64,000 nucleotides of DNA from Arthrobacter sp. PAMC25284. Lineage in GTDB: Bacteria > Actinomycetota > Actinomycetes > Actinomycetales > Micrococcaceae. The stretch covers positions 1,364,001 through 1,428,000 of the forward strand of contig NZ_CP080382.1 in assembly GCF_019443425.1 (NCBI RefSeq). The letters run 5' to 3'. The notes beneath the pieces are model-generated. The model saw nothing but the letters and a program-made list of their open reading frames with translations, made no database searches and was not told the origin of the DNA. The translations under genes were made by a program, and so were the position numbers. Shown in pieces: positions 2,790 through 62,124 of this stretch. Position 1 is the first letter of the stretch, and each line of letters opens with the position of its first letter.

Positions 2790-3912
2790 GTGGCAAATAA
2801 AGTATTGTGGCGGCCCGCGCCACACCGGTGGGCCGCCGCGTTGCTCGGACTCGCCGCAACAGGCATCCTCCTCGCGGCGGCGCCGGCTGCGTACGCCCAC
2901 GATGAAACGAGCGACGCACTGTCCCTTGCTGTTGAGGAAAACCGCATTGTGGGCACTGCGCTGGTCGAGTACACGGACCTCGGGTTCAAGGACACCTCAG
3001 GCGACGGGCTGCTCGACGAGTCCGAGTTCAAGGAGCAGCAGTCTGCAGTCTCCGCGGGCCTCGTATCTACCGCGCGTGAACGGGTCGAGCTTGTAGTCAA
3101 CGGGACCGAAATGTCGATAGTCGGGGCCGGTCTCTCCTTTCCTGAAAAGGACACCGGCACAGCATCGGCGGACGTCGGACTCGCCTTCGTCTCTGGACCG
3201 TTCGACGGCGGGTTGTCGCAACTGGCGTTCTCCTGGGGCTTCAACTCGCCGGGTGACACGGTGGTGGTTTCCGATGCAGACAGTGCGGTCGTAGGACAAC
3301 TCAGCGACGACGGCACGGTCACGTTCACGCTCGACACGTGGGCCACCGCAACGTCTTTCCTCCGGCAAGGTGTCGAACACATTCGGCTCGGGCTCGACCA
3401 CACGCTTTTCCTCGTGGTGCTGACGCTCGGCGTGGTGGGTACGCAAATCACCCGCGCCACGGCATGGCGCGTCGTCAAGCTCGTCACAGCCTTCACGGTC
3501 GGCCACGCAGTGAGCCTCTGCCTGGCATATTTCAGCTTGCTTCCCGTGCCTGCGCAGATTGTCGAACCTGCCATTGGGCTGTCGATCGCCGGCGTCGCCG
3601 CCCTCGTGGTGCGTTCGAAACTGGGAACGCATCCCTGGTGGATCGCGGGCGTGGTTGGCTTGGTGCACGGACTGGGCTTTGCGTCGAGTCTCGCCGATCT
3701 CGGGCTGGCGACGGCGGACCACGCCGTCGCCCTCCTGACCTTCAACCTCGGGATCGACCTCGCGCAGGTCGCCGTCGTGGGCATCGTTATGGCTTCCTAT
3801 GCCCTGCTGGGGAGGCTCCTTCCGCGCCGGGTCGAATTCGTCCGGCTTGCCGTCTGCGTCGCGATTGGCGCCGTGGGCCCTGTTCTGGACAGTGACGCGA
3901 CTCATCCCGTGA
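2790..3912 (+). CDS. HupE/UreJ-type membrane protein; C-terminus shifted by one extra base
   Basis: Starts at GTG 2790. It has a signal peptide cleaved near AYA-H (residue 36), an extracellular domain of about 150 residues and a membrane half with the family signature FRQGVEHIRLGLDH and several hydrophobic spans. Residues 68-79 (DTSGDGLLDESE) match a canonical EF-hand calcium loop at positions 1, 3, 5, 9 and 12. As written, the frame runs to 4043 with an unrelated tail. Removing one base in GGGCCC at 3875-3880 restores a typical family end (VGLFWTVTRLIP) and a stop at 3910-3912, about 373 residues, well short of the next gene. HupE/UreJ relatives are linked to nickel or other metal uptake; the substrate here is unknown. 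Confidence 0.8.
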
Positions 3913-4053
3913 TGATCGGCCTACGGGACGTGCTGCCCACCGGCGAATCATCGACATCAGGTAAATGTCAGAGGAATGGAATCAATCCACTCCCCGGACT
4001 CAAACGCGTCATCCGAATCGGCCGGTCGCCGAATGGCAGGTAGCATCGGGGCC

Positions 4054-7283: not shown

Positions 7284-8693
7284 CTACATCCTCACGTGCA
7301 GGCGCCGGGCCGCTTCGGAGATGGACCCGCTCAGCGACGGGTACACCGTAAAGGTGCTGGCGACGTCGTCGACGTGCAGTTTCTGGGTCACGGCGAGGGC
7401 GATCGGGAAGATCAGCTCGGAGGCGTTTGGCCCCACAACCACGCCGCCGATCACGGTGCCGGAGCCCTTGCGGGCGAAGATTTTGACGAAGCCGTCGCGG
7501 TGGTTTCGCATCTTGGCGCGGGCGTTGCTGCGCAGCGGCAGCTTCACAACGTCGGCCTGGTACTTACCGGAATCGATCTCCGCCTCGGAGACGCCCACGT
7601 TGGCGATTTCGGGCGAGGTGAAAATGTTGGACGCCACCTGGTGCAACTTCAGCGGCATCACGGCGTCGCCCAGGAAGTGCGCCACCGCGATCCTGCCCTG
7701 CATTGCAGCTACGGAAGCCAACGCCAGGATGCCGGTGCAGTCGCCGGCCGCGTAGATGTTTGGGGCAGTGGTGCGGGAGACGCCATCGACTTTGATGTGA
7801 CCGCTCTCGGTGACCGCGACGCCGGCTTCCTCCAGTCCCAGCCCGTCGGTGTTCGGGATGGACCCGACACAGACCAGGCAGTGGCTGCCGGTGACGGTGG
7901 AGCCGTCACCGAGGGTGGCCACAACGCCGTCCTCGGTGCGTTCTACCGATTCGGCGCGTGAGCGGGAGAGCACCGTGAGCCCGCGGCGTTCGAAGACGCC
8001 TTCAAGGACCTCAGCGGCGTCGGTGTCGGACCCGGGCAGCACGCGGTCACGGCTGGAAATCAGGGTTACCTTGGAGCCCAGGCCGTTGTAGGCGGAGGCG
8101 AATTCGGCGCCGGTGACGCCGGAGCCGACCACGATGAGGTCCTCCGGAAGCTCGTCCATGTTGTAGATCTGGGTCCAGTTCAGGATCCGCTCGCCATCCG
8201 GCCGGGCGGTGGGCAGCTCGCGCGGGTGCGCGCCGACGGCGAGCAGGATCGCGTCGGCCTCAATGGTTTCGGTGCCCCCGGCGGTCTGGACTTCGATCGT
8301 GTGGTTGTCCAGCATCCGGCCGGACCCGATCATGATCCGCACGTTCTGGTTCTCCAGGCCCTTGCGGATGTCCTCGGACTGGTTCCGGGCCAGGCCCAGC
8401 AGCCGGTTGTTGATGTGCTTAAGGTCCGCGCGCATCGTCGGCAGGCAGTCGCCGCCGTCGACGTCGAACTTGACGCCCAGCTCCCCCGCCTCGCTGACTC
8501 GGGTCATCAGATCCGCCGTCGCGATCAGGGTCTTGGACGGCACTACGTCAGTCAGCACCGCCGAGCCGCCAAGGCCGGCCCGTTCAATGACGGTGACCTG
8601 GGCCCCCAGTGAGGCGGCGACCATGGCGGCTTCGTAGCCGCCGGGCCCTCCGCCGAGGATTGCGATGCGGGGTGAGCTGAAATCGGGATGCAT
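7284..8693 (-). CDS. lpdA: NAD(P)H-quinone dehydrogenase, LpdA type
   Basis: 469 residues from ATG 8693. It has the disulfide-reductase fold: FAD motif ILGGGPGGYEAA near the N-terminus, NAD motif VVGSGVTGAEF mid-protein, second FAD motif IYAAGDCTG, and a C-terminal dimerisation domain with VYPSLSGSISEAARR. The usual redox-active cysteine pair is missing: the segment reads GGSAVLTDVVPSK where dihydrolipoamide dehydrogenases have two cysteines. Mycobacterial LpdA also lacks a complete pair and acts as an NAD(P)H-dependent quinone reductase, so a dihydrolipoamide dehydrogenase label would be wrong here. It is divergent from the purine nucleoside phosphorylase gene, with about 150 bases between the starts. 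Confidence 0.88.
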   Translation of the reverse strand: MHPDFSSPRIAILGGGPGGYEAAMVAASLGAQVTVIERAGLGGSAVLTDVVPSKTLIATADLMTRVSEAGELGVKFDVDGGDCLPTMRADLKHINNRLLGLARNQSEDIRKGLENQNVRIMIGSGRMLDNHTIEVQTAGGTETIEADAILLAVGAHPRELPTARPDGERILNWTQIYNMDELPEDLIVVGSGVTGAEFASAYNGLGSKVTLISSRDRVLPGSDTDAAEVLEGVFERRGLTVLSRSRAESVERTEDGVVATLGDGSTVTGSHCLVCVGSIPNTDGLGLEEAGVAVTESGHIKVDGVSRTTAPNIYAAGDCTGILALASVAAMQGRIAVAHFLGDAVMPLKLHQVASNIFTSPEIANVGVSEAEIDSGKYQADVVKLPLRSNARAKMRNHRDGFVKIFARKGSGTVIGGVVVGPNASELIFPIALAVTQKLHVDDVASTFTVYPSLSGSISEAARRLHVRM

Positions 8694-12121: not shown

Positions 12122-12488
12122 CTACAGCTCCACCTCGATCTGGCCATCCACAATCCGGGTGCCATACGTGGCGAGGCGGAGGCCGGAGTTGCCGAGGCAC
12201 TCTCCCGTGCGGAGGTCGTAGACCTCTTTGTGCAAGGGGGAGGCGAGCGTCTGCCGGGCCCCCGCGGGAGCCGACGATGCCGCGGGCCATCACGTGGGCA
12301 CCGGTGGCCGGGTCCTCCTGAGCGACCGCGAAGACGTCCCCGCCGACAGTGCGGATCAGCGCGACCTGTTGGCCGAAAATCAGCGCCGCTTCACCCCAGC
12401 CCGGCTCCAGATCGGCCACGGCGCACACCCGGTGCCAGCCCGCCCCGAGTCCGGTGGTCTGTTCCTCAAGCGTCAGTACGGTGGTCAT
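12122..12488 (-). pseudogene. nirD: Nitrite reductase small subunit NirD, broken by one extra base as assembled
   Basis: From ATG 12488 the protein reads MTTVLTLEEQTTGLGAGWHR and stays NirD-like through HVMARGIVGSRG. It then leaves frame at GGGCCCCC (12256-12263 on the plus strand). Dropping one base restores the family end: LASPLHKEVYDLRTGEC, then ATYGTRIVDGQIEVEL and a TAG at 12122. The span of 367 bases equals 121 codons plus a stop plus one surplus base. NirD is a Rieske-like subunit of NADH nitrite reductase; assimilatory versions often lack the cluster ligands, as here. Unusually it is divergent from nirB rather than downstream of it. The shift may be a sequencing error, see the findings. 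Confidence 0.85.
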
Positions 12489-12736: not shown

Positions 12737-15416
12737 GTGACCGGACAGACTTCAAGCCCCCTGAACCAGGGCGCAGAGCTCCCCTCAACTCCGCGCCGTA
12801 TCGTCGTCGCCGGAGGCGGCCCCGCGGCCCACCGGTTCGCCGATGCGATGCACGCCCGCGGCCTTGACGGCTGGAATGTCACCGTCCTCACCGAGGAAGC
12901 CCACCTCCCCTACGACCGCGTCGCGCTGAGCAAGGCCCTCACGGACAGCACCGTGGACCTCACCCTTGGCAACACCTCGATGTGGGACCACGCCGCCCTT
13001 GACCTGAAAACCGGAGAGCGCGTCACCAGCATCGACACCGCCGGCAAGACGGTCCGGACCGCGGCCGGAAGCGTCTACCCCTACGACGAACTCGTCGTCG
13101 CAACAGGCTCGGACGCCGCCCGCCTGCCCATCCCCGGCGCTGAACTGACGCACGTTTACCGCACCCTGGAGGACGTCTGGGCCATCAACCAGGCGATTAC
13201 GGAGCTGACCGCCAGGCTGGGCCGCAAGGTCAGGGCTGTCACCATCGGCGGCGGTCTTCTGGGCCTCGAATCCGCCGCCGGCACTGAGCAGCTAGGCGCC
13301 ACCCCGATCGTCATCAACGGCTCCCCCTGGCTTATGAACACCCAGCTGGACGAGGGCGCGGGCCAAGCCCTCGGCCGCCTGATTGAGGCCAAGGGATTCA
13401 CCGTGCACGGCGGGGTGTTCCCCTCCGAGGTCCTTTCCGACGACGACGGCCAGGTCACCGGTGTCCTGATGGCGGACGGCCGCACCATCGACGCCGACCT
13501 CGTGGTCGTCGCCGTCGGCGTCCGGCCCCGCGACGAACTGTTCCGGGCTCCCGAGGGTGCCGAGCAGCTCTTCCAGCTCGGCCCCCGCGGCGGAGTTGTC
13601 ATCTCAGACGGCTGCGAAACTGAGATCCCCGGCATTTGGGCGATCGGAGAGGTCGCGAACTTCGGCGGCATGTGCCTGGGGCCTCGTCGCCCCGGCCAAC
13701 ACCATGGCCGAAATCGTCGCGGACCGGCTGCACGGCGGCGAGGCCACGTTCCCCGGCTTCGACACCGCCACCAAGCTCAAGCTTTCCGGCGTCGACGTCG
13801 CCAGCTTCGGTGATGCCTTCGCCCGGACCGAACACGCCCTCGAAATCGTCTATGCCGACCCCGCCCGCGGCGTCTACCAGAAGATCGTCACCACCGACGA
13901 CGCCAAGACCCTCCTCGGCGGCATCTTCGTCGGCGATGCGACCCCGTACACGTCCCTGCGGCCCATGCTGGGCCGCGAACTGGCCGCCGAGCCGGGCGCC
14001 TACCTCACCGCCGCCGGCGGCGGGGACGCCCCGGAGACGGAACTTCCGGACGACGCAACCCTTTGCTCCTGCAACAACGTCAGCGCCGGCAGCATCCGCG
14101 ACGCCATCAACGGCTGCGGCGCGTGCGAGGGCAACGCCCCGGTCCAGGAACTCGGCGAGCTCAAGGGCTGCACCCGGGCCGGTACGCAGTGCGGTTCGTG
14201 TGTGCCGATGCTCAAGAAGCTGCTGGAAACCGAACTGACCAAGTCCGGCGTCGAAGTCTCGAAGGCGCTCTGCGAACACATCGAGCTGTCCCGCCAGGAT
14301 CTCTTCGACGCCATCCGTGTCCTGGGACTGACCTCGTTCGAAGAGATCATGGCCAAGTACGGCACTGGCGCGGGCTGCGATATCTGCAAGCCGACCATTG
14401 CGAACATCCTCGCCAGCCAGAACAGCGCCTACGTCCTCGACGCCGGCCGCGGCACCCTGCAGGACACCAACGACCGCGCTCTCGCCAACATGCAGAAGGA
14501 CGGCACGTACTCGGTGGTCCCGCGCATTGCCGGCGGCGAGATCACCCCGAAGAAGCTCGGCGTGATCGCCGCCGTGGCGGAAAAGTACAGCCTGTATACC
14601 AAAATCACCGGCGGCCAGCGCATCGACATGTTCGGCGCCCGGCTCGAGCAGCTCCCGGAAATCTGGAAGGAACTGGTGGATGCCGGCTTCGAGTCCGGCC
14701 AGGCCTACGGCAAGAGCCTGCGCACCGTGAAGTCCTGCGTCGGATCCACCTGGTGCCGCTTCGGTGTCCAGGACGCGGTGGCCATGGCCATCGCACTGGA
14801 ACTGCGCTACCGCGGCCTGCGCAGCCCGCACAAACTCAAAATGGGAGTCTCCGGCTGCGCCCGTGAATGCGCCGAGGCGCGGGGCAAGGACGTCGGCGTC
14901 ATCGCCACCGCGGACGGCTGGAACCTCTACGTCGGCGGCAACGGCGGCGCCACTCCGGCCCACGCCGAGCTGCTGGCCAAGGACCTGGACGACGAAACAC
15001 TGATCAAATACATCGACCGGTACTTTATGTACTACATCCGCACGGCGGACCGGCTGCAGCGCACTGCGCGCTGGCAGGAAGAGCTCGACGGCGGCATCAC
15101 GCACGTCGAGGACGTGGTGGTGAAGGACACCCTGGGCATCGCCGAGGAACTCGAGGCAGCCATGGCCAGGCACGTGGACACTTACGTCGATGAGTGGGCC
15201 GACACGCTGAAGGATCCGGAGCGGCTGCGCCGGTTCCGCTCCTTCGTCAACGCCCCGGACCAGAAAGACGACTCGATCACCTTCGTCTCCGACGAGCGTG
15301 GCCAGATGCGCCCGGCCACGGCCGAGGAAAAGAGCTCCACGCTTATCGCCACGACCATCCCGGTCCGGCCCGTCGATGCACCCGAACCCGCCCCCGCCAC
15401 GGAAAGCAAGGTCTAA
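12737..15416 (+). pseudogene. nirB: Assimilatory NAD(P)H nitrite reductase large subunit NirB, broken by one extra base as assembled
   Basis: From GTG 12737 (AAAGG upstream) to TAA 15416, 893 codons once one base is removed from GGGGCC at 13678-13683. Reading stays NirB-like to VANFGGMCLG and resumes as LVAPANTMAEIVADRL in the +1 frame. Domains in order are a FAD/NAD(P)H module (VVAGGGPAAHRF, GGGLLGLES), a BFD-like cluster domain (LCSCNN, GCGACEG, QCGSC), and the siroheme/4Fe-4S half with CVGSTWC and CARECAEA, whose four cysteines ligate the cluster next to siroheme. It reduces nitrite to ammonium in the cytosol. cobA follows after two bases, supplying the siroheme precursor. A GlnR-like operator lies upstream. 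Confidence 0.9.
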
Positions 15417-20843: not shown

Positions 20844-23800
20844 TTACCCCACCGCCAGCGGCGCGTCCGAGAAAATGTTGCGGATGACCCCGTTGGCCCA
20901 GTCGAGGATTTCGGCGTCCTGCAGGTCCCGGCCACCGATCCGGGCCGTCTTGGGCTTGGGCACCAGGACCGCGTCAAGCGCCGGCTTGGCCTGAGCACCG
21001 GGATACATCCGGGTCAGCCGCATGAGTTTGGACTCCGGCAGTTGGGCCGGGGAGAACTTGATGAAATTGCCCTGCAGGGCAACGTCGGAGAGCCCGGCCT
21101 CGCGGGCCCCCACCCGGAAGCGGGCGACGTCGATCAGGTTCTTCGCCGGCAGCGGCGGCTCACCGTAGCGGTCCACGAGCTCGGCGAGGACCTCATCGAT
21201 GGCCGCGGAGGTCAGCGCCGAGGCGAGTTTCCGGTAGGCCTCGAGACGCAGCCGTTCACCGGGGACGTAGTCGTGCGGCAGGTGCGCGTTGACCGGCAGC
21301 TCAATCTTCATCTCGGCGGCCTTCTCCTCGGCCTCGCCGCGGTAATCAGCCACGGCTTCGCCCACGAGACGGATATAGAGGTCGAAGCCCACACCCTGGA
21401 TGTGGCCGGACTGTTCGCCGCCGAGCAGGTTGCCTGCACCGCGGATCTCGAGGTCCTTCATGGCCAGCTGCATGCCGGCGCCGAGTTCGTTGTGCGTCGC
21501 CACCGCCTTGAGTCGTTCCAGCGCCACCTCGCCCAGCGGTTTTTCCGCGGGGTACAGGAAATAGGCGTAGGCCCGTTCGCGGCCGCGCCCCACGCGCCCG
21601 CGGAGCTGGTGCAGCTGCGAGAGCCCGTACTTCTCCGCCCCGTCAACGATCAGCGTATTGGCGTTGGAGATGTCCAGGCCCGTCTCGATGATCGTGGTGC
21701 AGACCAGGACGTCGAAGCGCTTCTCCCAGAAGTCCACGATGATCTTCTCCAGCCGGCTCTCGGACATCTTGCCGTGGGCCACCTCCACCCGGGCCTCCGG
21801 AACGAGCTCGCGGATGTGCGCTGCGGTCCGTTCAATGGAGGACACCCGGTTGTGGACCAGGAAGACCTGCCCCTCGCGCATCAGTTCGCGCCGGATTGCC
21901 GCGGAGGTCTGTTTGTCCGTGTACGGCCCCACATAGGTCAGCACCGGGTGTCGTTCCTCCGGCGGCGTCGCCAGGGTGGAGGTCTCCCGGATGCCGGTCA
22001 GGGACATTTCCAGGGTCCGCGGGATCGGGGTGGCGCTCATGGCCAGGACGTCGACGTTGGTACGCATTTTCTTCAGCGCTTCCTTGTGTTCGACGCCGAA
22101 CCGCTGTTCCTCGTCCACGATCACCAGGCCGAGGTCCTTGAATTCGAAGTCCTTGGACAGCAGCCGGTGGGTACCGATGACGACGTCGACGGCGCCGGTC
22201 CGGACCCCTTCGGCCGTCTCCTTGGACTCTTTGGCGCCCTGGAAGCGGGACAATGGCTTGACCCGCAGCGGGAAGCCGGAGAACCGCTCGGTGAATGTCT
22301 CGTAGTGCTGTTGGGCGAGCAGCGTGGTCGGCACAAGCACGGCGACCTGCTTGCCGTCCTGGACCGCCTTGAAGGCCGCCCGGACCGCGATCTCGGTCTT
22401 GCCGTACCCGACGTCGCCGGAGATGAGCCGGTCCATCGGGATCTCCCGCTCCATATCGGCTTTGACCTCGTTGATGGTGGTCAGCTGGTCGGGGGTCTCC
22501 ACATAGGGGAAGGCCTCCTCGAGTTCGCGCTGCCACGGTGTGTCGGGTCCAAACGCATGCCCGCGGGAAGCCATTCGCGCCGAGTACAGCCGGATCAGTT
22601 CGCCCGCGATTTCCTTGACGGCCTTGCGCGCCTTGGACTTGGTGCTGGCCCAATCCGCACCGCCCATTTTGCTCAGCACCGGGGCGTCGCCGCCGACGTA
22701 GCGGGTGACTTGGTCCAGCTGGTCGGTGGGGACGAAGAGCCGGTCCCCCGGCGCGCCGCGTTTGGAGGGCGCGTATTCAAGCACGAGATACTCGCGGACC
22801 CCGTCCCCGCCGCCAGCTACCTTGCGCTGGATCAGCTCCACGAACCGGCCAATACCGTGCTGTTCGTGGACAACGTGGTCACCGGCGAGCAGCTGCAGCG
22901 GATCGACGGCGTTGCGCCGCTTGGACGGCATCCGGCGCATATCCTTCGTGGATCCGGCCGAGGTCCGGCCCCAGCAGGTCGGCCTCGGTCAGGAGTGCCA
23001 GCTTGAGGTCGTCCAGCACGAAGCCGCGACCGGCCGCGGCGGTGGTGATCTCGATCAGTCCGGCCTGCGGCTCCTTCTCGAGGGAATCAACCCGTGCGCA
23101 CGGGATGTCGGCGTCGTGGAAGAGTTCGGCGAGGCGCTGCGCTGGGCCGGGGCCTTCAGTTACCACCACAATCCGCCACTGCTCCCGGACGCGGGAACCG
23201 ATGAAGTCCATCATTTCGGCGACGTCGCCCTGGTAGCCACGCGGTTCGCGGGCGTGAAGGTTCAGCACGTCGACGTCGGGCATAAGTTCTTCATCGGTGG
23301 CCAGCGAGCTGATGGACCACCAGGACACCCCGTGGGTCAGGGCGGCGGTGCGGGTCTCGGTCAGTGACCGGAAGCTGGCCGAATGCAGGGCCGCCGAGGT
23401 CTGCGAACCCAGAATCGCGTCCAGCGCCAGCGGCGCGGTGCCGCCGTCGGACGCGGTCGACCAGGCGGCCTCAAGGAACTCCTCATTGGTGGCGGCGAGG
23501 TCGTGGGCTCGTGTCCGGACCTTTTCCGGCTCGATCACGACGGAGATGGACCCGGCCGGAAGCTGGTCCAGGAACGGGACCATGGCATCAACCAGTACGG
23601 GCGCGAGGGATTCCATGCCCTCGACGGCGATCCCGCCGGCGATCTTCTCCAGCATGTCCGCCGCAGCGGGCAGCTGGGACTTCAATGTCGCGGCGCGGGA
23701 CATCACGGAGGGAGTGATCAGGATTTCGCGGCACGGCGGGGCGTGCAGCGTGGTCGGATGGTGCACGCCCGGTGCGCTCAGCGAGCGCTGGTCGGCGACC

Positions 23801-46649: not shown

Positions 46650-49600
46650 TCAGTTGAGCCGGACTTCAACATCGTCAAAGCGTGCCCGTACAGGTGCGTT
46701 GGCGGCACTGCTCCACAGGTAGGACATCAGCCCGACGGAGCCTGGGGCCTGGAGCGAGGCTGTGGCATCACCCGCGCTGAGCAGCCAGTTGGCCGGCTCA
46801 CTGGCACCGACGCGCCAGACTTTCGCTTGGAGCGTCGTGGGCGAGGATCCGGTCACGGTCATGCGCAGACGGAGCTGGTCCGCCGCGGCCACGGTCAGAC
46901 CGGGAACGGCGACAGACTGCAGCGTGACCTCCGATCCCCCTGCAACCCTCGTGAGGTAGAGGCTGGCGCTTCCGGTGGCGGAAACCTTTAGCTTGGTGCG
47001 GTATTCGTCCGCGCCCACTTTCCGTCCGACAATGCCGAGGAACATCCCGCCGCCGCTGGCTATCTTGTCTGCCGAGACCGTGGCCTGGACATCAGCGCCC
47101 GGAGTCGAGATCCCGGCAAGGTAGGCGAGCCGTGAAACTCCGGGGCTGCCCATGACCATGGAGCCGCGGTCCTCTCCCACTGTGTAGTTGCCGGCCGAGC
47201 CGTTGACCGTCCAAGCGCCTCCCGGATCGGTTGTCCCCCAGCCCGAGGTTGTGGTCCGGCCAAAGGTGTCGGCGGCGAGCGGGGTCCCCGCTGGCGGCGC
47301 CGTCACAGTGACCGGCTTCTTGATGGACGTGGCGGCACCGTCGCTGTCCAGTACCGTCAGGGTGACTTGATACGTGCCGGCTTTGAGATAGCTGTGCGAC
47401 GCAGTAATTCCGGTGCCCGTGGCAGCATCCCCGAAGTCCCAGGAGTATGTGCTGATCGTCCCGTCGGGGTCGCTGGATGCTGCGGCGTCGAAAGCTGCCG
47501 TGAGGTTGGTGACTGCCACCGTGAAACCGGCCGACGGCGGCCGGTTCGGTTGAACGGTCACCGGGGAGGACGTTCTGCTGACGGCGCCGATATTGTCCGT
47601 GACCGTCAGGGTGACCTGGTAGGTGCCGCTGCTGGCGTAGCTGTGGTCCGCGGTTCGCCCTGTCGCCGTTGCCGCGTCGCCGAAGTCCCAGGCATACGAG
47701 GCGATGGTCCCGTCCGGGTCGCTGGATGTCGATGCGTCCACGGAGACCTTGAGCTTGCTGGTGCTGGAGGCGAACGCGGCGACGGGCGGCTGGTTGCCTG
47801 GCGGTGCCGTTGCCGTAACTGTGCGCGTTGTGCTTGCCGAGCGTCCGTCGCCGTCCAGCACCGTCAGGCGGACCATGTAGGAACCTGGCGCTGCATAGGT
47901 GTGCTGGGCTGTTACACCGGTTCCCGTGCTGCCGTCGCCGAACGCCCAATTATAGGAGGCGATGGGACCGTTCGGGTCCGAGGAGCCGGAGGCGTCGGCG
48001 CTGAGCGTGAGGTAGGTGATCGATGAGGCGAAGGCGGCCGTCGGCGGCGTCGACGCGACGTTCAGGGTCCGGCCTGAGGCACGGTAGTGGGACTGCACCT
48101 GTTGCAGTCCCAGGGCTGCCGGGTAGAGCGCCACCTCATCAATGTCTCCCTGCAGGTTGTCGCTTGTGGGGTCGCTGGGCCAGCCGGCCAGTAGGCCCGA
48201 TCCGATCCGCCAGTATCCGTCAAACACCCTGCCGGTGGTTACGTCCGTGCGGAAGGCTACTCGCGCCCCGTCAATGTAGAGGAACATGCCGCCGGTTCCG
48301 AGCGTGGCCACAATGTGGTGCCATTGGCCATCGTTGAACCCTGTTGCGCTGTTGACGGTTCGGATCGCGCCGTTCCACGTGCCGAAATAGATCCGCCCTG
48401 CGTCATCCATGTAGACATTGCGGTCCGTCACCTTGGACGTGCCGGCGGCTACGTTGCCGAATCCGATGATATTGCCTCCCTTGGTGGTGCCGGTTCTCAC
48501 CCAGGCCTCTGCGGTGAAAACGTCCGGGGCTCGGAGGATCCCGTTGTTTACGGCGACGCTGTTGACCGTGCCGTCGAAGGTTCCGGCGCCCGGACCCTCG
48601 CCGATGACGGCCCCGTCCATGCGGAGTCCGGCGCCCGGGGCTGCGCCCAGGTCCTCCGCCCCCGCGGAGTCGACGAGCGTTGATCCGGGGCCGTCGCTAA
48701 ACCGCCAGAAGTTGCCCGGGCCGTCGGCAAGAATGGCGGCCGCGTACCCGCTGGCAGGAGTCGCTTCGGAGGCCGTGATGTTCACGGTGTCAGAGCGCAC
48801 CTCATTGCCGAGCGGGTCCGTGACGAAGACCCGGTAGCGGTAGCTCTGCCCCGGCACCAGGCCGGAGTCGAGGTAACTCATGCCCGGCCGCTTCCAGAAA
48901 GTACTGTCCTGGGTGACGGTATAGACCGGGGAGGCGGTGACGCCATCCCGGATGACGCGGTAGGTGAGCCTGACATTGTCCTGGTCGTGGTTCGCCTGCC
49001 AGCGGACCCGGACGGTTCCGGCCGCGGGTGACGTCAGGGTGGGGTTGATGCGGGCGCCGCTAAGTACCGGACCGCGCTTGTTGGGCGCGTTGTCGCGGAC
49101 TGTGAACCGGACAAGCCCTTGCTGACGGATTCCGTTCACGGTGGTAAATTCGCCGCCCATCACCACGTACTGGTTGTTGCCAGTCACCGCCCAGGGCCCC
49201 TGGTTCTGGCCGGTGTACGTGCCCGTGTTCAGGGTGGGGAACCAGTTAAGCAGGGACGGAGACGGCAGCCCGGCCCAGTTGGGGTATCCCAGCGGGTCCC
49301 GGATGATGGTGCCGGTGGCCGCTTTGCTGAAAGCGAGGCCGCGCTGGAACCCCCACGGCTCGGTCTGCGGAAAGCCACCGATGTTGCCGCAGTAGTGCGG
49401 GTGCCCCACCTTGTAGATGGCGTTGTCCGCCACGTAGACGCCGTAGCTGTCCCCATGGCAGTCTTCCAGCCACCGGATGGCGCCGCCGTTCCACCCGGCG
49501 GCGACGGTCCCTTCCAGGTTGCCTCCGGTGCCGAAGACGTAGCCGGTCGCGTATACGTTCTCGGCATCGCTGGCCAGACTGGTGATGCTGGCGTGGAGGC

Positions 49601-50459
49601 CGCCGTTGCGGACCCTGTTGTTGGCGGCCCAAGGCTGCAGGCCGCCGGTCACGGTGTCCACTGCGGCCAGCCCGTAGCCGGGGTCCGACGAGCCGTTAAG
49701 GGTGGTGAACGCTCCCCCGATGACCATCCGACTCCCGTCAGGCGACAGTGCGAGCGCATTCACCCGGCCACCCACCGCCGAGGGCGCCCACCCGGTGAGG
49801 GCACCGGTTGAAGCCTGCACCGCGGCGAGCCGGTTTCGCGCGACCGAACCCACCGCGGTGAACAGGCCACCAAGGTACACGGTGCCGGCCGTGGGGACGA
49901 TCGCCCGGACGGCGGCGGCGGCCTTGGGCAGGAAGGAAGTGATGACCGCGCCTGTGACGGGATTGAGGGCGGCCACGCGCCAGACCGTGGTGCCGTTGAC
50001 GGAGGTGAAGTCGCCGCCGACATAGATCCTGGACCCGTCGGGGGCTGCCGCGATACTGAAAGCCTGGGCGTTCAGGACTGGAGCAAACGGGAGCAGGTCG
50101 CCGGTAGTGAGGTTGTACGCCAGGATGTTGCGGCGGACCACAGTGTTGCTGCCGGCCGGTGCGCCGGCAGGACGCGCCGTACCGAAGCTTCCGGCGACAT
50201 AAACCGTGTTGCCGACGATGACCTGCTGCCACACCACACCGTCAATCTGCACGGTCGGCAGCCCGTCTGCGGTCACAGTGGCCGGGTCGGCGGAGCTGGC
50301 CGGCACCGGCGGGGCGCTATCGGCACCCGCCGGGGTGATCCCGGCCATCCCCATCGTCACTGCCACCGCCGCTGCCGTAGCGCCGGCCAGTAACTTCTTC
50401 AGCAGCCGGCGCCCTGCCGGGCGGCGGTCCGATGACGGCAGTGATGTTGGCATGCTCAT
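46650..50459 (-). CDS. Secreted beta-propeller protein 3 (propeller, FN3-like, LamG-like, three PKD, C-terminal sandwich)
   Basis: 1269 residues from ATG 50459 with AGGA just upstream. As written, the frame is joined to the preceding gene because of that gene's frameshift, giving a false single protein of over 2500 residues; the signal peptide (LAGATAAAVAVTMGMAGITPAGA) and own ribosome site show it is separate. Domains in order: propeller with EDCHGDSY ... GHPHYC, FN3-like, LamG-like (NFWRFSDGPGSTLVDSAG, GQWHHIVATLG, IDEVALYPAAL), three PKD domains each with a WDFGDA/WAFGDG motif, and the C-terminal sandwich ending ARFDDVEVRLN. Likely extracellular polysaccharide binding or adhesion (inference). 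Confidence 0.82.
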   Translation of the reverse strand: MSMPTSLPSSDRRPAGRRLLKKLLAGATAAAVAVTMGMAGITPAGADSAPPVPASSADPATVTADGLPTVQIDGVVWQQVIVGNTVYVAGSFGTARPAGAPAGSNTVVRRNILAYNLTTGDLLPFAPVLNAQAFSIAAAPDGSRIYVGGDFTSVNGTTVWRVAALNPVTGAVITSFLPKAAAAVRAIVPTAGTVYLGGLFTAVGSVARNRLAAVQASTGALTGWAPSAVGGRVNALALSPDGSRMVIGGAFTTLNGSSDPGYGLAAVDTVTGGLQPWAANNRVRNGGLHASITSLASDAENVYATGYVFGTGGNLEGTVAAGWNGGAIRWLEDCHGDSYGVYVADNAIYKVGHPHYCGNIGGFPQTEPWGFQRGLAFSKAATGTIIRDPLGYPNWAGLPSPSLLNWFPTLNTGTYTGQNQGPWAVTGNNQYVVMGGEFTTVNGIRQQGLVRFTVRDNAPNKRGPVLSGARINPTLTSPAAGTVRVRWQANHDQDNVRLTYRVIRDGVTASPVYTVTQDSTFWKRPGMSYLDSGLVPGQSYRYRVFVTDPLGNEVRSDTVNITASEATPASGYAAAILADGPGNFWRFSDGPGSTLVDSAGAEDLGAAPGAGLRMDGAVIGEGPGAGTFDGTVNSVAVNNGILRAPDVFTAEAWVRTGTTKGGNIIGFGNVAAGTSKVTDRNVYMDDAGRIYFGTWNGAIRTVNSATGFNDGQWHHIVATLGTGGMFLYIDGARVAFRTDVTTGRVFDGYWRIGSGLLAGWPSDPTSDNLQGDIDEVALYPAALGLQQVQSHYRASGRTLNVASTPPTAAFASSITYLTLSADASGSSDPNGPIASYNWAFGDGSTGTGVTAQHTYAAPGSYMVRLTVLDGDGRSASTTRTVTATAPPGNQPPVAAFASSTSKLKVSVDASTSSDPDGTIASYAWDFGDAATATGRTADHSYASSGTYQVTLTVTDNIGAVSRTSSPVTVQPNRPPSAGFTVAVTNLTAAFDAAASSDPDGTISTYSWDFGDAATGTGITASHSYLKAGTYQVTLTVLDSDGAATSIKKPVTVTAPPAGTPLAADTFGRTTTSGWGTTDPGGAWTVNGSAGNYTVGEDRGSMVMGSPGVSRLAYLAGISTPGADVQATVSADKIASGGGMFLGIVGRKVGADEYRTKLKVSATGSASLYLTRVAGGSEVTLQSVAVPGLTVAAADQLRLRMTVTGSSPTTLQAKVWRVGASEPANWLLSAGDATASLQAPGSVGLMSYLWSSAANAPVRARFDDVEVRLN

Positions 50460-50497
50460 TCCTGTCCTGGGTCCGGCATTGAGGGGTTGTGTGGCGC

Positions 50498-53400
50498 TTA
50501 CGGGTTCTTGACGACGAAGTTGTCGAAACGCAGTGCCACCGGCACGTTGGTCGCCGAACCGGACAGGTACCCGATCAGGGCCCGGGCTGCCGGCGGTCTG
50601 CAGTGCCGCGGTTGAGTCGGCAACCGTCAGGTTCCAGTCAACAGGCTCCGTCCCGGAGGCCCGCCAGACTTTGCCGCTAAGGGTCGTCGGTGCCGCCCCG
50701 TCGAGTTTGAGCCTAATGACGATGGGGTCATTGGTGCCCATGGTCAGCCCGGCAATATTGATCGGACCGGCCAGCGTGGTCTGAGCATCGTTGATGACCT
50801 TCGTCAGGTACAGCGACACCGCTCCGTTGCTCGCGATCTTGACCTTGGCCCGATAGTCGTTGTTGTCCGCCCGGCGGCCGACCAGGGAGACGTACATGCC
50901 GCCGCCGTTGGCGATCTTGTCCGCGGAGACGGTCACGCTTCCGTCGAATGGGGCCGTCGACATTGAGGTGAGGTAGGCGGTGCGGCTGGCTCCCCCCACC
51001 CCGAGTGTTACCGCTCCGGTTCCGTTGTTGACCGCGAAGTTGGAGTTCCCTCCCGAGACCGTCCAGGCCCCACCGGTGTCCGCCGCGCCGAAACCGTTCG
51101 CCAAGGTCCGTCCGAAGGCGTCTGCAGCGAGGACGGCGTTGGCCGGCGGAGCTGTCACGGTCACAGTTGCGGTGGCGGTGCCCTTGCCGCCGTTGTTATC
51201 CGTCACCGTCAGGGTGACGGCGTAGCTGCCGGCGGCGGCGTAAGTGTGCGATGCCGTCGACCCCGTGCCCGTTGACCCGTCCCCGAAAGTCCAGGCATAG
51301 CCGGTGATGGTTCCGTCGGTGTCCGTCGAGCCCGAAGCGTCGAAGGCGGCCGCCAGTCCGGAGACCGTTTTGGTGAATGCGGCCTTCGGGACAACGTTCG
51401 CCGGCGGCGCCGTCACCGATACGGCACGAACCACACTGTTGGTGTTGCCGGTGTTGTCCGTGACCGTCAGTTTGACGTTGTAGGTCCCGGCCGCCGCGTA
51501 CTTGTGCTGAGCCGTGACGCCGGTGCCTGAACTGCCGTCACCGAAGTCCCAGCTGTAGGCCGCGATCGGACCATTGGCGTCGGAGGACGTGGTGCCGTCC
51601 ACGGATGCGGTGAGTCCTGCCGTTGTCGAGGTAAAGGCCGCTACCGGCGGGGCCGGCGCCGCGTTGACGGTCCGGCCGGAGGCGACGTAGTGGGCCTGAA
51701 CCCGGGAGAGCGGCAACACCGCCGGGTAGACGGCGACTTCGTCGATCTGGCCGGCCAGATAACGGCTCGTGGGTTGGCTCGGCCAACTGTTCAGGTTGTC
51801 TCCGCCGATCCGCCAATACCCGTCGAACGCCCAGGCCGCGGTGGTGTCGGTCCGTCCCGCCACCTGGGTGGCGTCGACGAAGAGCTGCATGCCGTTCGGT
51901 CCCAGGGTCGCGACGACGTGATGCCATTGGTTGTCGTTAAAGCTCTTCGTTGTGTTGACCGTGATCCGGGACCCGGTGCTTCCCTGCGGGCGGACTCCGA
52001 AGAAGATACGTCCGGAATTGTCCATGTAGACGTTTCTGTCGTAGTCGGCAGAGACGCCCGTCTGTGAGTTGCCATAGCCGACGATCTCCCCGCCGGCCTT
52101 GGTGCCGGTACGGATCCAGGCCTCGGTGCTGAAGACCTGCGGACGTTCAGTCAGGGTCGGGCTGGCGGCGACGCCGTTGGTGCCGCCGTTGAACGTGGCG
52201 GCAGTATTGGACTCTCCTGACAGCGCCCCTGCTGCGCCGAAGCTGACGCCGGGGCGGACGAGGAGGTCGTCTTTGCCGGAGAGGTCCACTCCGGTGCCTC
52301 CGCCGGTCTCACCCAGCCGCCAGTAGTTGCCCGGCTTGTCCGCCAGAACCTGCTGGGCATAGTTCCCCGGCGGCGTGACCGAACCCGCTGCGGCGATCGT
52401 GACTGTGTCGCTGCGTGCTTCGTTGCCGAACGCATCCTTGACGAAAATCCGGTAGCCGTAGCTCTGTCCCGGGGTCAGCCCGGTGTCCAGGAAGGTCATG
52501 CCCGGACGCTTCCAGAACGTGGACGCCTGTTTCACTGTCGCGAGCACGGCGCCATTGCGGCGGATCTCGTAGGTCAGGTTCTCATTGTCCTGGTCCCAAT
52601 TGGCCTGCCAGCGCACCCGCACGGTACCGGCGGCCGGGGTGGACAGGGTGGGGTTGAAGTTTTGCCCCGTCACCCGCGGACCGCGCTTGTTCGGGGACAG
52701 TCCGGTACGGGGAAAACGGGTGAGCCCCTGCTGGGGCTGGTTGTTGATGATGGTGAATTCACCGGCCATCACGACGTAGTCCGCGTTGCCGGTGACCGTC
52801 CACGGCCCCTGGTCCTGGCCCGTGAAGCTTCCGGCGTTAAGGATCGGGTACCAGTTGAGCAGCGACGGCGCTGGGTTGCCCTCGAAGTTGGTGTAGCCGT
52901 GATTTTCCTTCGTGACGACGCCCGTGGCGGCTTTGCTGAACGCGATGCCCCGGTTGAACTGCCAGGGCTGGGTCTGCGGGAAGCCGCCGACGTTGCCGCA
53001 GAAGTGCGCGTGGCCGGCCACGTAGACGGCGTCCCCAAGCGGAACGATCGAGTAGGTGTCGCCATGGCAGTCCTCCAGCCACGTGACGGAATCATCTGAC
53101 CATTTGACCGAGAACATCCCTTCTAGGGTGCTGCTGCGGCCATAGGTGTACCCGGCACCGTAGACGTGGGTGCCGTCGCTGGCGAGGGTCGTGATGGAAC
53201 CCGTGGTGCCGCCGTTACGCACGATGCTGTTAACCGGGAACGGCAGGACCTTGCCCTGGGCTGTGTCCAGCTTGGCGATGCCGTAGCCGGGGTTGCTGGA
53301 TCCGTTCATCGAGGTGAAGGCTCCGCCCACGACGATGCTGGCACCGTTCGGGGACAGCACCAGGGCGTTGACCCTGCCCCCCACTGCGGAGGGGTTCCAC

Positions 53401-54101
53401 GGCAGCAGGGAACCGTCAGAGGCCTTGAGCGCGGCGAGCCGGTCCCGGGTGACAGAGCCGACGGCGTTGAAGAGTCCGCCCATGTAGACGGTGGTGTCGG
53501 TGGCGATAATCGTTCGGACGGAGGCAGACATCCGGGGCAGGAAACTCATGATGAGGTCACCGTTGGTGGGGTTCAGCGCCACCGCCCGCCAGACGGTGGC
53601 GCCGTTGTAGGCGGTGAAAGAACCTCCGACGTAAAGCCGGGAGCCGTCCGGTGAGACCGCCAGTGCCGTGACTTCGGCATTGAAGCTGGGAGTGAAGGTG
53701 TTGAGCAGCTCGCCGGTCGTGAGGTTGTACGCCAGGATGTTGTTCCGGGTTACGGTGCCGGTGCCGGGTGCGGCGCCGGCGGGCCGCGCCTCCGTGAAGT
53801 CGCCGCCGACGAACACCGTGTTGCCGAGGATCACCTGGGTCCAGGCCACACCATTGATCTGGGCGGTCGGCAGGCCGTCCGCGGAGACCGTGGCAGGGGT
53901 GGCCGGATTGGCGGGATCAGCGGGGGCCGTGTCGGCGGAGGCAGGCAGCGCGCTGGTCAGTCCCAGCGACAAGGCCATGGCCGCGGCGAGCACCACCGCC
54001 AGCAATTTCTTTGTGGCCGTCAATCCGGCGTACGTCGGCGCCGGTCCCGTAGACCGGCCACCTTCGCTCCGAGCGCTCCCCAGCATTGCGTTCCTCAGCA
54101 T
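50498..54101 (-). pseudogene. Secreted beta-propeller protein 4 (propeller, FN3-like, LamG-like, two PKD, C-terminal sandwich), broken by one extra base
   Basis: Starts at ATG 54101 with AGGGGA seven bases upstream and a signal peptide (KKLLAVVLAAAMALSLGLTS, cleavage near ASA). Domains are the propeller with EDCHGDTY ... GHAHFC, FN3-like, LamG-like (NYWRLGETGGG, DNQWHHVVATLG), two PKD domains, and the C-terminal sandwich. One surplus base in GGGCCC (50578-50583) shifts the last 27 codons; removing it gives LIGYLSGSATNVPVALRFDN and a TAA at 50498, matching the ends of paralogues 2 and 3. About 1200 residues. The damage affects only the last strand. Its start codon overlaps the stop of the upstream glycosyltransferase by one base. 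Confidence 0.82.
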
Positions 54102-55028
54102 TATCGTCCCCTTTGGTTCAGTTGAAGACCGGCCGTGGTAGCGCTGAGCGCAGCCACGTCCTGGGCCGTGTAGAGGCCTCGGATCCAGTGATCGTTGCGG
54201 TTTTCTCCTACATTGGTTTTCATAAGCGCCTGGCCTTGACTGCCCGGAATGATCGGGAAGTGGCGGGGCGCAGACCGTACCTGCCGCACCGGAATACCCG
54301 CACGCAGCGCCACCCAGTGCAGCCAAATGTCGTCGGCGCCGGGGCAGGCGCTCAGGAATCCGTCACCACGCCGCCGCAGCTCATCGAGCATCGCCGGCGG
54401 GTAAATCACCCCGGACACTCCGGGGGCGAAGTTGGTGGGCCGCACGGCAGTGTCCTTCGCCCGCGGCCAGGTGCCGTACTCGGCGACAGCGCCGTCAGAG
54501 ATCCCCATGACGCTGACCCAATGGCCGCTGATGGCATCGGGGTGCCGTCGGCTGGCGTCCAGCAGCAGTGCCAGCCAATTTCGCGGGTAGATAATGTCGT
54601 CGTCGGCGGTGACAAGCCGCGCTGTGTGCCCCTCCACTGACTGCACAAACGGGAAGTACTTGGTGTGCGGACCGTAATTCGAGGTGAGCTTAACTTCCAG
54701 GCCTCGACGTTCCAGCCTGGCCAGCGACTCCGGACGCGCCTCGAACAACTCCCGGGAATCCAGCCACAGAATAAGCCGGCGCGGCTTCACCGTCCCACGG
54801 CCGATCGATTCGATGGCCACGGCCACCGAATGGATCCGGTCCCCATAGCTGGTCAGCGACACGACGACGTCGGCTGTTCCCGTGACCGCGTCGCGGGCGA
54901 CACCATTCCGCAAGCGCAGATAGGCCAGGGCACCACCGGCCCCGCCGCCTTTTGAGTGTCTTCCGGACTTTGCGGACGGTCATCCGGACAAGCCCCGGCG
55001 TGCGCGGGCGCTCCGTTGATCTGGTCAT
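54101..55028 (-). pseudogene. Glycosyltransferase-like protein, broken near its start by one extra base
   Basis: ATG 55028 opens MTRSTERPRTPGLVRMTVRK. A surplus base in GGCCCC (54938-54943) then shifts the frame; removing it gives RRAGGALAYLRLRNGVARDAV and joins to the long downstream frame, 308 codons in total. The main part reads VVVSLTSYGDRIHSVAVAIES, RLILWLDS, and TADDDIIYPRNW with a DDD metal site, like GT-A fold sugar transferases that are often found in capsule loci. ADDIWLHW later may be the catalytic acid region. It sits between an anchored protein gene and the propeller genes and might glycosylate them or the polymer (inference). Confidence 0.78.
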
Positions 55029-58405: not shown

Positions 58406-59468
58406 TATTTTTTTACCTTCCCCTTACTTCTTTCTTGACGCCGGGCTGCCGGTGTTTAGTTCGCATCAACGAACATCCTCGACCCAGCCGAGGATTGATC
58501 GTCGTTGCTTTGCCACAGCCCCGGGATACAGGGACGTGTGAGCAGCTGCCGGCCCACGCCGCCGCACTTCGCGGGAGCAATCCTGGCGAGAAGGACTGCG
58601 AGGCTGACAGCAGGAAATTGGATGCCGGCCGCCGGACCCGGCGTGGCATTTCTGCGGTGGAAGTCACGGGCGGATGCCCCGGTCTTTGCTATTGCGACAA
58701 TTCCGGGGTCTGCGACTCGCGGCCGGCGGCGGTAGCGCGTGGGCCATGACTTTCCCGGGTCCACGCGCCCGGCTTGGCGATCACGGTCAGCTTCAACGCT
58801 CCAGGGCGGGCTGCGCACCGTGCCGGCGGCAGTTCCTAAGAACCGGGCCGGGCTGAGATTCCATCGATTGCCCAGTGGGCGGTACCAGCCGTGGTGCCGA
58901 ATGGCGGCGCTCACTTCTGGACAACCGTTCGTTGACGGGCATTCCACTAAAAGGGAGCCGGCGGCGGCTGGGGGGAGAGCCTCGGTCTCAGAAGGCTCTG
59001 ACGCCGCCGGCTCCGACCTTGGCGCACGGCGGCCGGCTAGGGCCCCGTGCGAATCCACTGAAGGAGTTCGGTAATGCAAGGTTTTGACGCGTCCACTATC
59101 AATGGTGGCAAGGGCAGACCCAGCAATCAAGACTGGATCTTGTATCCACACTGTCCTGCTGGTCATGCGCGCGGTCGAAACCGCCCTGAAGCTACTCATT
59201 TGAGACCTTTGTGAGTTGTTCCTGGGACTGCGCTAAGTCAATCGCGCGGGTCTGCTCCGTGCACGAGTAGCGCTCACCCGACTTCTCCCGTGGATTCCTC
59301 GCCGCGACTACTTGGAGTTACTCCCGCCGATACCCGCGGACACCTGCGCCCTACGCAGGCCAGCCGGACGACGGCGCCGCACGTGCCCTACACCCGGCCT
59401 CGGACGGGGAAGCGCCCGCGGGAGACTGCCGGATTGCGGCAGAGGCGCCGCCGGGCGGGAGCACGGCT
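58406..59468. other. About 1.06 kb without a recognisable gene, contains a large hairpin
   Basis: Open frames here (for example 58456-59199 minus) have biased, family-free translations and no ribosome site. The region holds the promoter of the leftward operon near its left end, a nested hairpin at 58954-59014, and nothing else I can name. GC content and codon-like structure drop compared with flanking genes. Confidence 0.5.
58954..59014 (-). terminator. Nested hairpin followed by a T-run on the minus strand
   Basis: Outer arms 58954-58966 and 59002-59014 (GGAGCCGGCGGCG / CGCCGCCGGCTCC) pair perfectly over 13 bp; inside, AGAGCC (58976-58981) pairs with GGCTCT (58994-58999). Read leftward, the stem is followed by CTTTTAG. 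It could terminate the luxR transcript about 455 bases after its stop, or be part of a small RNA. Confidence 0.5.
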
Positions 59469-62124
59469 TCAGGAGCGCAGCGCGGGTTCCCCGCTGAGTT
59501 CCGTCCGCCGGCGGACCCCGAGCTTGGCCAGGATGTGCGAGAGATGTCCGGCGACGGTTCGTGGTGACACTCCCAGGACCGCAGCGATTTCGGCGTTCGT
59601 CGCGCCGCCTGTGACCAGGTCCCGGATTTCTTCTTCCCGGCCGGTCAGCGCGGTGCCTGCGGTGCCCGGCACAAGGTGGAGGTGCGCGGTCGTCCCGGCT
59701 TCAACCAGGCGGTGGTGCACGCGCCGCTGAACCGCCGTCTGCTTCCACCGTTCCGGCGTTTTTTCCACGAGCCGCCCGGCCTGCTCGGCGGCCTCCAGAG
59801 ACAGCAGCAGGTGTCCGGCGCCCAGGGCGTCGTCGCTGAAATTGATAAGTCCGCCCGCATCGGCGGCGGCCACCGCAGTTGCGTACGATGACAGCAGCCG
59901 CGCCTCTGCGCCTTCGACACGATTGCTGCACGCGGCAAGCGCCGCAGCCTGCCCGGTGTCTCCGCAGCGGACTGCCAGGCGCCTGATGTCTGCTTCCACC
60001 CCGGCGAGGCCCTCGTGGTCTGCCTCGCGGGCAAGTTGGAGCAGGCCGGCACCGGCGCTGCGGCTCGGGCCCCGGCACTGGGCCCGCCGCATGGCAGTAG
60101 GCATCGGCCAGCAACCGCAGGGTGCGCGGCTCTCCGCAGCCGGAGCGGCCATAGGCCACGACATACTTGTGTGCCGCGTCCGGGTTCCCGGCACACCTTG
60201 CTGCGTATGCCGCCAGGGCGAGGGCGAAGGGCCGCAGGATCAGCGGATCCGCGATCAGAAGTTCCTCGTCCGCCCACCGCAGTTCAGCAAGGCTGTCCCG
60301 CATCCGGCCCTGACGCAACAGCGCGTATCCGCGCACAAGGTGCAGCATGCCACCGCTGAAGAGCAGGCGTCCGGGCTGCTGCGCCGCATAGTCGTCGAGG
60401 ACCGCCGCCACCTCGATCCAGCACCCGGCACGACTAAGGTTCAGGCAATGGCGGAAGACCATCTCCTCGTAGACCAGCGGAAGAGCCCGGCAGGCGGCTG
60501 ACGCCCCCAGCCACGCCTCTTCGTCAAGTTGCAGGCCGGACACCATCCGGCCTTGCGCGGTCAACAGTTCGGCGAGTTGGGACAACGCCGGGAGACAGAT
60601 TTCCGGAACGGACCGGGATGCCTCGGCAAGTTCGCGCAGCCCGGCAGCAACGGCCGGGAACCGCCCATCCCGGCCGCGCAACAGCATATCGGCCGCCATC
60701 CCTGCCGCCGGCAATGACGTCCACGGCGTTCCGGCCAGGGACAGCCCGGGGCTGCGTCCGGCCCCTCCAGAGACCGTCCCGCACGCCTTGGCCTGTGTCC
60801 GGGGTTCGCTCGTCGCGTGTCTGAGCCTGTCGGCAAGGAGGGCAGCCAGATAGACGGCGCGTCCGTGGTGCAGGGGCAGTGCGTCCTCCAGGTGCCCGGC
60901 AGCCGCGTCCATCCGGCCAAGCAGATAGTTTGAGTACGCAAGTTGGATCCGGGCTTCAGGAAGGAACAGCGCGTCATTCACGGCGGCGGCAGCCCGTAAG
61001 GCTGTTTCCGGGTCCAGCGCCGTGTTGGCAGCCTCGGCCGCTTGGACGAGTTGCCCGGGAGGAATGGCCGCCCCGCAGTCCAGGGACCAGCGAAGCCGGT
61101 TCAGGCGGGCTTCAGGCCGGACATCGTCCGCGCGGAAAAGGCCCAGAATGTTGGCCCGCAGCATAGAACTCCGGGCGGCCGGAACCCGTTGCCTGATGAT
61201 TTCGCCCACCATCAAACTCGCTGGCCGGACCTCACGGTCCGTTCCGGCTGTGACTGCGATGATCCCGGCCAGGTCCAGGGCATCCACGGCTCTGGACCCG
61301 CTGAACCGGAGGACCTGGCTCAGCGGAAGCGGCCCTGCGAGGGCAACAATGGTCGCTGCTGTCCTCGCCTCCGGCGCCATCGAGCGGAGCTGTTGGTACA
61401 GGACATCTGAGGCGGGCACCTGCGCAAGTGCCGGGTTGGACAGCAGAAACCACGCGCCGTGGCGCCAACCCAGGACCCCGCTGTCCCGTGCGTGCCGGAT
61501 CAGCGACATCAGCATCAGCGGGTTGCCCGCTGCCGCAGTGTGGAGCCACCTGCTGACCCACGGGGATACGTCGGACCGGAGGATCTGTTCGCACAACTGA
61601 TGGGTGCCGCCCGGGCTGAGCGGGGACAGAGTGAATTTTGCCAGCAACCCGTCGTCCCACAGCGTCAGAAAATCCTCGGGAATCAGACTCCCCGGCAGGC
61701 TCGTGGCCATGAGACCTGCGACCCCCGTGGCGGCGGCCCGGGCCAGTACCTGGGCGGTGCTGCGGTCCAGGCAATGTGCATCGTCGATCACGAAGAGCGG
61801 AGGCTGCGCTTCGGACCGCAGGCTTTCGGTTATTCCGGCCAGAACGGCCGCGTACGAGTCAAGGTCTCTGACTGGAACATTGCCCAGATAGGGCGCCAGC
61901 GCCCCGAAGGGTACCGAAGCCAGGGTCCGCGTCGCCGTCAGACGGATGAAATGTTCACCTTGCCCGAGCTCCCGAAGGACCGCTTTGACGATGGCTGTCC
62001 TGCCGGTCCCGGCAGGACCGATAATCAGCACCCCGGACCCGGTGCCGGACCGAAGACTGTCCAGCGCACCGCTGACCACGCCGTCGCGTTCGATCAGCGC
62101 TGTGCTGTCCGCGGGGCGTGCCAT
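59469..62124 (-). pseudogene. Large LuxR-family ATP-binding regulator, broken by one extra base as assembled
   Basis: From ATG 62124 the protein has an AAA/STAND ATPase with Walker A IGPAGTGRTA (residues 35-44) and Walker B LFVIDDAH, followed by a long helical repeat region. At GGGCCCC (60067-60073) a surplus base shifts the frame after LLADAYCHAAG; removing it joins to SRSAGAGLLQLAREADHEG and the C-terminal LuxR helix-turn-helix (LTGREEEIRDLVTGGATNAEIAAVLG, SPRTVAGHLSHILAKLGVRR), stop at 59469, about 884 residues. These MalT-like proteins bind a small ligand and activate transcription. Its position suggests it may control the adjacent surface-polymer operon (inference). Confidence 0.85.

Follow-up and report, generated by a model that had tools for sequence, protein, structure and literature searches.

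Extra bases at G-run/C-run blocks in the Arthrobacter sp. PAMC25284 genome: consensus errors in all probability, with DNA phosphorothioation as a candidate cause

Seven genes in a stretch of 64,000 bases (the window) from the genome of Arthrobacter sp. PAMC25284 are each broken by one extra base, which lies every time in a run of G followed by a run of C. Are these breaks mutations of the organism or faults of the assembly, and what could produce them in this one context? The window is G000:C1:1364001-1428000 (G000 being this genome) and belongs to a single contig of 3,883,676 bases; the strain is presumed to be a soil-dwelling environmental actinobacterium. We conclude that the seven breaks are almost certainly consensus sequencing errors and that the real genes are intact, since the signature extends across the 600 kilobases (kb) sampled, occurs in a single context, hits indispensable genes and is accompanied by intact copies, among them a HupE protein of 99% identity. 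The systematic base-calling or consensus error put forward in the original prediction, which was made from the letters of the window, is thus strongly supported. As to the cause, phosphorothioation of the DNA backbone at GGCC by the strain's own Dnd system is a somewhat favoured candidate, and is weighed below.

Two samples of the genome were used, 400 kb around the window (own400) and a separate hold-out of 200 kb (own2). The comparison genomes were G010, G020, G647, G717 and G086, with a second stretch of G010 added; the main matches of same-genus genomes are 77-83% identical along a 6-kb stretch. A block is defined here as at least two G followed by at least two C, and breaks are counted below on blocks of at least five bases, of which the window holds 310 (847 blocks in all minus 537 that are GGCC). 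Frame changes were placed by tblastn of relatives' open reading frames (ORFs) onto our own DNA. The seven runs are all present where the original prediction had placed them:

3875..3880, plus strand: block in hupE, with a family-like C-terminus in another frame; ORF 2790-4043
12256..12263, plus strand (gene on the minus strand): block in nirD, with the shift from a 132-residue ORF of G010 falling inside it
13678..13683, plus strand: block in nirB; pieces 12737-13813 and 13557-15416
22967..22972, plus strand (gene on the minus strand): block in mfd; pieces 22879-24606 and 20844-22940
50578..50583, plus strand (gene on the minus strand): block close to the C-terminal end of propeller gene 4, placed by a paralogue match and by G+C content at third codon positions (GC3)
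46650..54326, minus strand: fused ORF of 2558 residues, two propeller genes joined by the event at 50578
54938..54943, plus strand (gene on the minus strand): block in a glycosyltransferase gene, about 29 residues from its start at 55028
60067..60073, plus strand (gene on the minus strand): block in a luxR-type regulator gene, with domains in two frames

A frame change is supported at all seven sites, if unevenly. ORFs of relatives place the changes in nirD, nirB, mfd and luxR, database homologues support those in hupE, nirB and the glycosyltransferase, and a neighbouring paralogue supports that in propeller gene 4. The support is strong for nirB and mfd, where two relatives agree and complementary domains are found in the two pieces. 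In nirB the break is seen with both G010 and G020; the two pieces match homologue P0242 at 82.7% and 95.7% identity and join at 13680/13681, and at least 120 NirB homologues of 93-96% identity have 725-899 residues, compared with 619 in the ORF here. The break in mfd is likewise recovered with the ORFs of both relatives, one piece holding the UvrB_inter and MFD_D3 domains and the other the CarD, DEAD and TRCF domains. Support is good for hupE and the glycosyltransferase. HupE homologue P0122 matches 2790-3878 in frame 3 at 99% identity, while its last 10 residues match 3880-3909 in frame 1 at 100% (expected value, E, 0.12). For all three homologues (P0122, P0123 and P0124) the final ten residues align in that alternative frame, 9-10 of 10 being identical, although pieces this short have E values of 0.12-0.21. 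Glycosyltransferase homologues P0003 and P0004 begin at 55028 in frame -3, which they follow as far as 54948 and 54942, and continue from 54940 in frame -1. The N-terminal piece is matched by these two of four homologues (E 2.5e-6 and 3.5e-7); the others, P0013 and P0035, align in frame -1 alone and gave no N-terminal match. The best 20 homologue matches are 302-308 residues long, as against 270 here.

For nirD, luxR and propeller gene 4 the support is weaker. The G010 ORF matches nirD in pieces of 61% and 80% identity, and the shift is absent with G020. In luxR an AAA ATPase domain lies in 59701-62124 and a GerE domain in 59469-60194; the G010 homologue is 56-58% identical and the DNA alignment is noisy. 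Propeller gene 4 shows a drop of GC3 to 0.63 at 50427-50726, and the C-terminus of its paralogue matches 50593-50507 in the other frame (29 residues, 45% identity, E 0.02). The frame shift proposed for this gene is borne out to that extent, and it does not truncate the gene: the reading frame runs on into the next propeller gene. Alignments to G010 of more than 1.5 kb end near 32 kb of the window and restart just past the window, and are also absent from about 0.65-10.3 kb. The propeller, glycosyltransferase, luxR and hupE genes thus sit in stretches that are not common to G010.

Breaks of the same kind recur throughout the two samples. Aligned to the 400-kb sample, 265 ORFs of G010 yield 34 frame breaks (30 +1 and 4 -1) and 234 ORFs of G020 yield 24 (22 +1 and 2 -1). 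Between the two relatives the breaks are unbiased, with 11 in 253 G010 ORFs against G020 (5 +1 and 6 -1) and 10 in 254 G020 ORFs against G010 (4 +1 and 6 -1). When our own ORFs serve as queries there are 15 breaks in G010 (9 -1 and 6 +1) and 18 in G020 (14 -1 and 4 +1); some of these mirror insertions in our own sequence and others lie at gene ends. A filter discarded breaks with either side below 60% identity or 25 residues, with a junction of more than 100 bases or with large query gaps. After filtering and merging, 28 of the 31 breaks in the 400-kb sample fall on a block (5.3 expected), as do all 11 in the hold-out (1.3 expected), so that chance does not account for the seven sites. Own breaks without a block are at 119818, 172741 and 383008; those at 323678 and 356594 were scored as block matches although their DNA gap sits off the block. 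The own breaks lost to the filter include the one in luxR and one on a block at 66434, and three of 14 were lost in the hold-out (56087, 63924 and 97238). The block signature is absent from the five comparison genomes, whose breaks at blocks are at chance level or mirror our own insertions. The latter is the case for G010 (2 of 16, 2.3 expected) and G020 (2 of 16, 2.1 expected), for which our own ORFs were the queries. G647 has 3 of 15 (2.6 expected) and the second G010 stretch 1 of 1 (0.2 expected); G717 and G086 are dealt with below.

This wider sample qualifies two statements of the original prediction. That every event is +1 is true of the seven, but elsewhere two-base insertions, read as -1 breaks, occur in or beside blocks (own400 122881, 130038 and 233972; own2 112709). 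As to the statement that no frameshift was found in other contexts, there is one more mismatch in the window, at 8741-8801. It adjoins lpdA (in comparison with a 639-residue G010 ORF), its first side is 60.5% identical, its junction has no block, and it is probably a misalignment of the start region. Both runs described as unaffected, at 8643-8648 in lpdA and at 9889-9894 in the Rrf2 gene, are present in the sequence.

The genes hit in this way include those for ProS, GatA, GatB, UppS, FolD, the monomeric Idh, DnaE, RecN and a cytidylate kinase-like protein, all named from intact copies in G010, the last with a score under the cut-off of its model. The gene of the replicative polymerase, DnaE, is split twice and so lies in three pieces. 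The sole further DnaE-family match is a single piece (300279-302900, 454 bits) and is probably the error-prone polymerase; DnaE is the one gene for which second copies were looked for. DnaE, ProS, GatA, GatB and UppS are genes that the cell cannot lose, and their breaks are therefore not real. A comparison with homologues, which the original prediction had proposed, found homologues with an intact frame for each of the seven window genes. The nirBD genes were compared at 22 same-genus loci, G010 and G020 included; no gap listed for any of them falls on a block of five or more bases, and five have some flagged break elsewhere. HupE protein P0122, from a different contig of 49,406 bases, is intact and 99% identical over 363 residues. 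The length of that contig and two residue differences, apart from the start, mark it as part of a separate assembly, which would be of this species or of one very closely related to it.

These findings bear directly on the alternative that the breaks are real +1 mutations, produced by slippage or by a phosphorothioate-driven hypermutation hotspot. The signature is motif-specific and very insertion-biased, as such a hotspot might be. It is nevertheless hard to reconcile with a DnaE gene split twice, with hits in ProS, GatA, GatB and UppS, or with a near-identical HupE that is intact. Both sides of all 42 filtered breaks keep their identity to relatives, at least 60% by the filter and in many cases more than 85%. 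In addition, the draft genome G086 (130 contigs), which is likewise positive for dnd (phosphorothioation genes), has 0 of 2 breaks at blocks (0.2 expected) in the approximately 31-35 kb aligned, a small sample in which about three block breaks would be expected at our own rate. The original prediction had considered slippage or hypermutation the less likely explanation; we regard real mutation as extremely improbable and close to excluded.

The next step concerns which runs gain a base. Block lengths were taken as read and changes counted net. Differences of +1 from G010 number 4 among 2408 GGCC, 5 among 1017 blocks of five bases and 23 among 271 of six; those of -1 number 4, 3 and 3 in the same classes. 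The corresponding values relative to G020 are 2 of 2138, 6 of 894 and 18 of 230 for +1, and 4, 3 and 1 for -1. If the six-base blocks with a +1 difference are five-base blocks plus one, about 2% of the true five-base blocks are affected. Among other runs compared with G010, G-runs show 5 +1 and 1 -1 of 474 and C-runs 4 +1 and 3 -1 of 533; plain runs of G, C, A and T have 1-5 +1 each. A plain homopolymer error was rejected, since neither these runs nor C-run/G-run blocks (counts below) have a comparable +1 excess. GGCC itself is neither avoided nor in excess, with observed/expected ratios of 0.92-0.93 in our two samples and 0.91-0.94 in G010 and G020.

The G-run/C-run context led to a search for a GGCC modification, and because GpsGCC is a known phosphorothioate motif, dnd genes were among those searched for. 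A locus was found:

G000:C1 ~1667839-1675282 (L186:12839-19981 and the start of L187): dndA-E locus, from curated-model matches
1671524-1672828: DndC, 695.6 bits (cut-off 290.4)

Scores for DndD (589.1 bits, cut-off 245.85) and DndE (96.4 bits, cut-off 71.85) also exceed the model cut-offs, and that for DndA (479.8 bits) is just below its cut-off of 480. The dndB gene is in two pieces in two frames; its frame change, at approximately L186:15799-15821 in comparison with three of three dndB proteins from other genomes, is beside a GGGCCC at 15794. Judged from these matches, dndA, B, C, D and E are present together and this is a complete locus. It also holds a dnd-associated putative methyltransferase (TIGR04096), and a type IV restriction-like protein of 1103 residues is encoded nearby (L187:2270-5581). 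A DndC above the cut-off is rare, being found in 2 of 206 genomes of the genus, 2 of 396 of the order and 8 of 394 of the class, our own included each time. The specificity loop of our DndC reads GYPAP-RPK-FRW and thus contains an Arg-Pro-Lys triplet; no relative of solved structure was found for this protein by sequence. GpsGCC specificity goes with Arg-Xxx-Lys/Arg in DndC, and the Streptomyces lividans protein has Arg-Pro-Lys, according to the available part of PMC12193691, so that by analogy our triplet would point to GGCC (GpsGCC type). PMC9521924 has GpsGCC among the known motifs and puts the modified sites at fewer than 15%, and PMC9069010 describes nanopore base calls that err at phosphorothioate sites, with about 4-10% of motif sites modified.

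The following mechanism would account for the observations. The strain's Dnd system would phosphorothioate the DNA backbone at GGCC, and native DNA would then have been read by a long-read method. Sulfur would alter the sequencer signal, so that errors coincide with phosphorothioate sites, and would yield insertions rather than errors of other types. In blocks where counting the bases of a run is difficult in any case, one more would enter the consensus, with the result that an extra base, sometimes two, is called in some G-run/C-run blocks of the assembly. We favour this misreading of phosphorothioated GGCC on native DNA over a generic fault, with moderate confidence, because the dnd locus is complete, with a DndC that is rare in the genus, and because the DndC triplet is tied to GpsGCC. 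The modified GGCC motif tentatively offered in the original prediction is in this respect plausible by way of Dnd, but not by way of a C5 methyltransferase. Several observations weigh against it. In G717, a single-contig genome whose DndC carries Arg-Pro-Lys as well, blocks account for 2 of 18 breaks where chance would give 2.4, so the presence of dnd does not suffice by itself; this is the one single-contig dnd-positive genome tested, and its platform and polishing are not given. Isolated GGCC, the core motif, is hardly affected (+1 at 4 and -1 at 4 of 2408, relative to G010), and C-run/G-run blocks have a small +1 excess relative to G010 (26 +1 and 13 -1 of 4411), with none relative to G020 (13 and 13 of 3899). 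No flanking motif, and no longer recognition motif, separates the affected blocks (41, hand-picked from frame breaks and window sites) from unaffected ones, except that A is slightly over-represented at distance 1 (0.39 against 0.24, p 0.004, uncorrected for 24 tests). Finally, neither the papers cited here nor the titles and opening parts of abstracts among the papers listed gave a report of insertions at phosphorothioated GGCC. The idea that every dnd-positive genome carries the signature was discarded with G717; the lack of block breaks in G086 would fit short reads.

The main rival is a consensus error without any modification, in which a base-caller, polisher or sequencing chemistry over-counts G-run/C-run junctions in high-GC DNA and the dnd locus is coincidental. 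The share of blocks affected rises with their length in the assembly (0.2% of four-base, 0.5% of five-base and 8.5% of six-base blocks), as in run-length faults, and both the sparing of isolated GGCC and the clean dnd-positive G717 agree with this explanation. Against it, no comparable +1 excess occurs in C-run/G-run blocks or in plain runs of G, C, A or T, which makes a plain homopolymer fault unlikely. It also takes the dnd locus as a coincidence of about 1% in the genus (2 of 206), with a triplet that happens to point to GGCC. We consider this explanation rather unlikely, though with a substantial chance of being right. Another GGCC-type base modification, N4-methylcytosine or 5-methylcytosine, has precedent in modification-mediated nanopore errors at specific motifs (PMC10687267, in the part available). 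The original prediction had suggested a check for a GGCC methyltransferase, and this came out negative: PF00145, the C5 methyltransferase family, is found in 8 of 17 genomes searched and is absent from ours, other methyltransferase families being outside the search, and the best scores of the two PF01555 enzymes, which stay below cut-off, are with adenine-methyltransferase models. C5 methylation at GGCC is ruled out by the PF00145 search, which found no enzyme, and base modification as a whole has a slim chance of being the cause. If phosphorothioation is the cause, the false insertions may further be an imprint of the phosphorothioate landscape, in which +1 scars mark the GGCC-containing blocks that are most fully modified. 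We hold this extension tentatively, at somewhat less than even chances; were it true, native long-read assemblies of genomes with GpsGCC-type Dnd systems would allow modification sites to be inferred without the reads.

Some further observations were made on these genomes. A SufS-type cysteine desulfurase (window 30269-31882) has approximately 100 extra N-terminal residues that are unmatched in most relatives and may reflect a wrong start. Its best segment is 89% identical to that of Arthrobacter sp. ok362, the closest among the named-genome matches listed. The ends of contig G717:C1 hold three occurrences of rpoB (5894, 7705360 and, inverted, 7714283), which points to an overlap left untrimmed in that assembly, and three frame breaks are clustered roughly 3 kb from where the contig begins.

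Events of this kind occur once per 9-13 kb of aligned coding DNA, which by extrapolation suggests that some 300 coding places are wrong across the genome. Pseudogene counts and missing-function calls are thus unreliable, and yet genome completeness is listed as 99.99. The finding is a matter of assembly quality, and the chemical cause proposed for it can be tested and is rather unexpected. Should phosphorothioation be that cause, the modification would be one of the backbone, with which methylation-aware polishing would probably not cope, and affected assemblies could be flagged simply by looking for +1 scars at G-run/C-run blocks.

Known systems offer partial parallels, each cited here from the part of the source available. 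In Listeria (PMC10687267), too, nanopore errors that recur systematically at one short motif stay uncorrected in a long-read genome, there as the effect of a lineage-specific modification. Those errors are described as mismatches at GCAGC and GCTGG and the modification is of bases, whereas ours are insertions at G-run/C-run blocks, with a backbone modification as the candidate. Phosphorothioates in Salmonella (PMC9069010) also disturb nanopore calls, with a minority of motif sites modified; the motif is GAAC/GTTC and the error is at the level of reads, as opposed to a +1 in a finished assembly, and the portion consulted does not state insertion as the error type. The GpsGCC Dnd system of S. 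lividans 1326 (PMC12193691) differs in that ours is known from genes alone and has a dndB split at a GGGCCC block; the two have in common the dndA-E locus and the Arg-Pro-Lys triplet of DndC.

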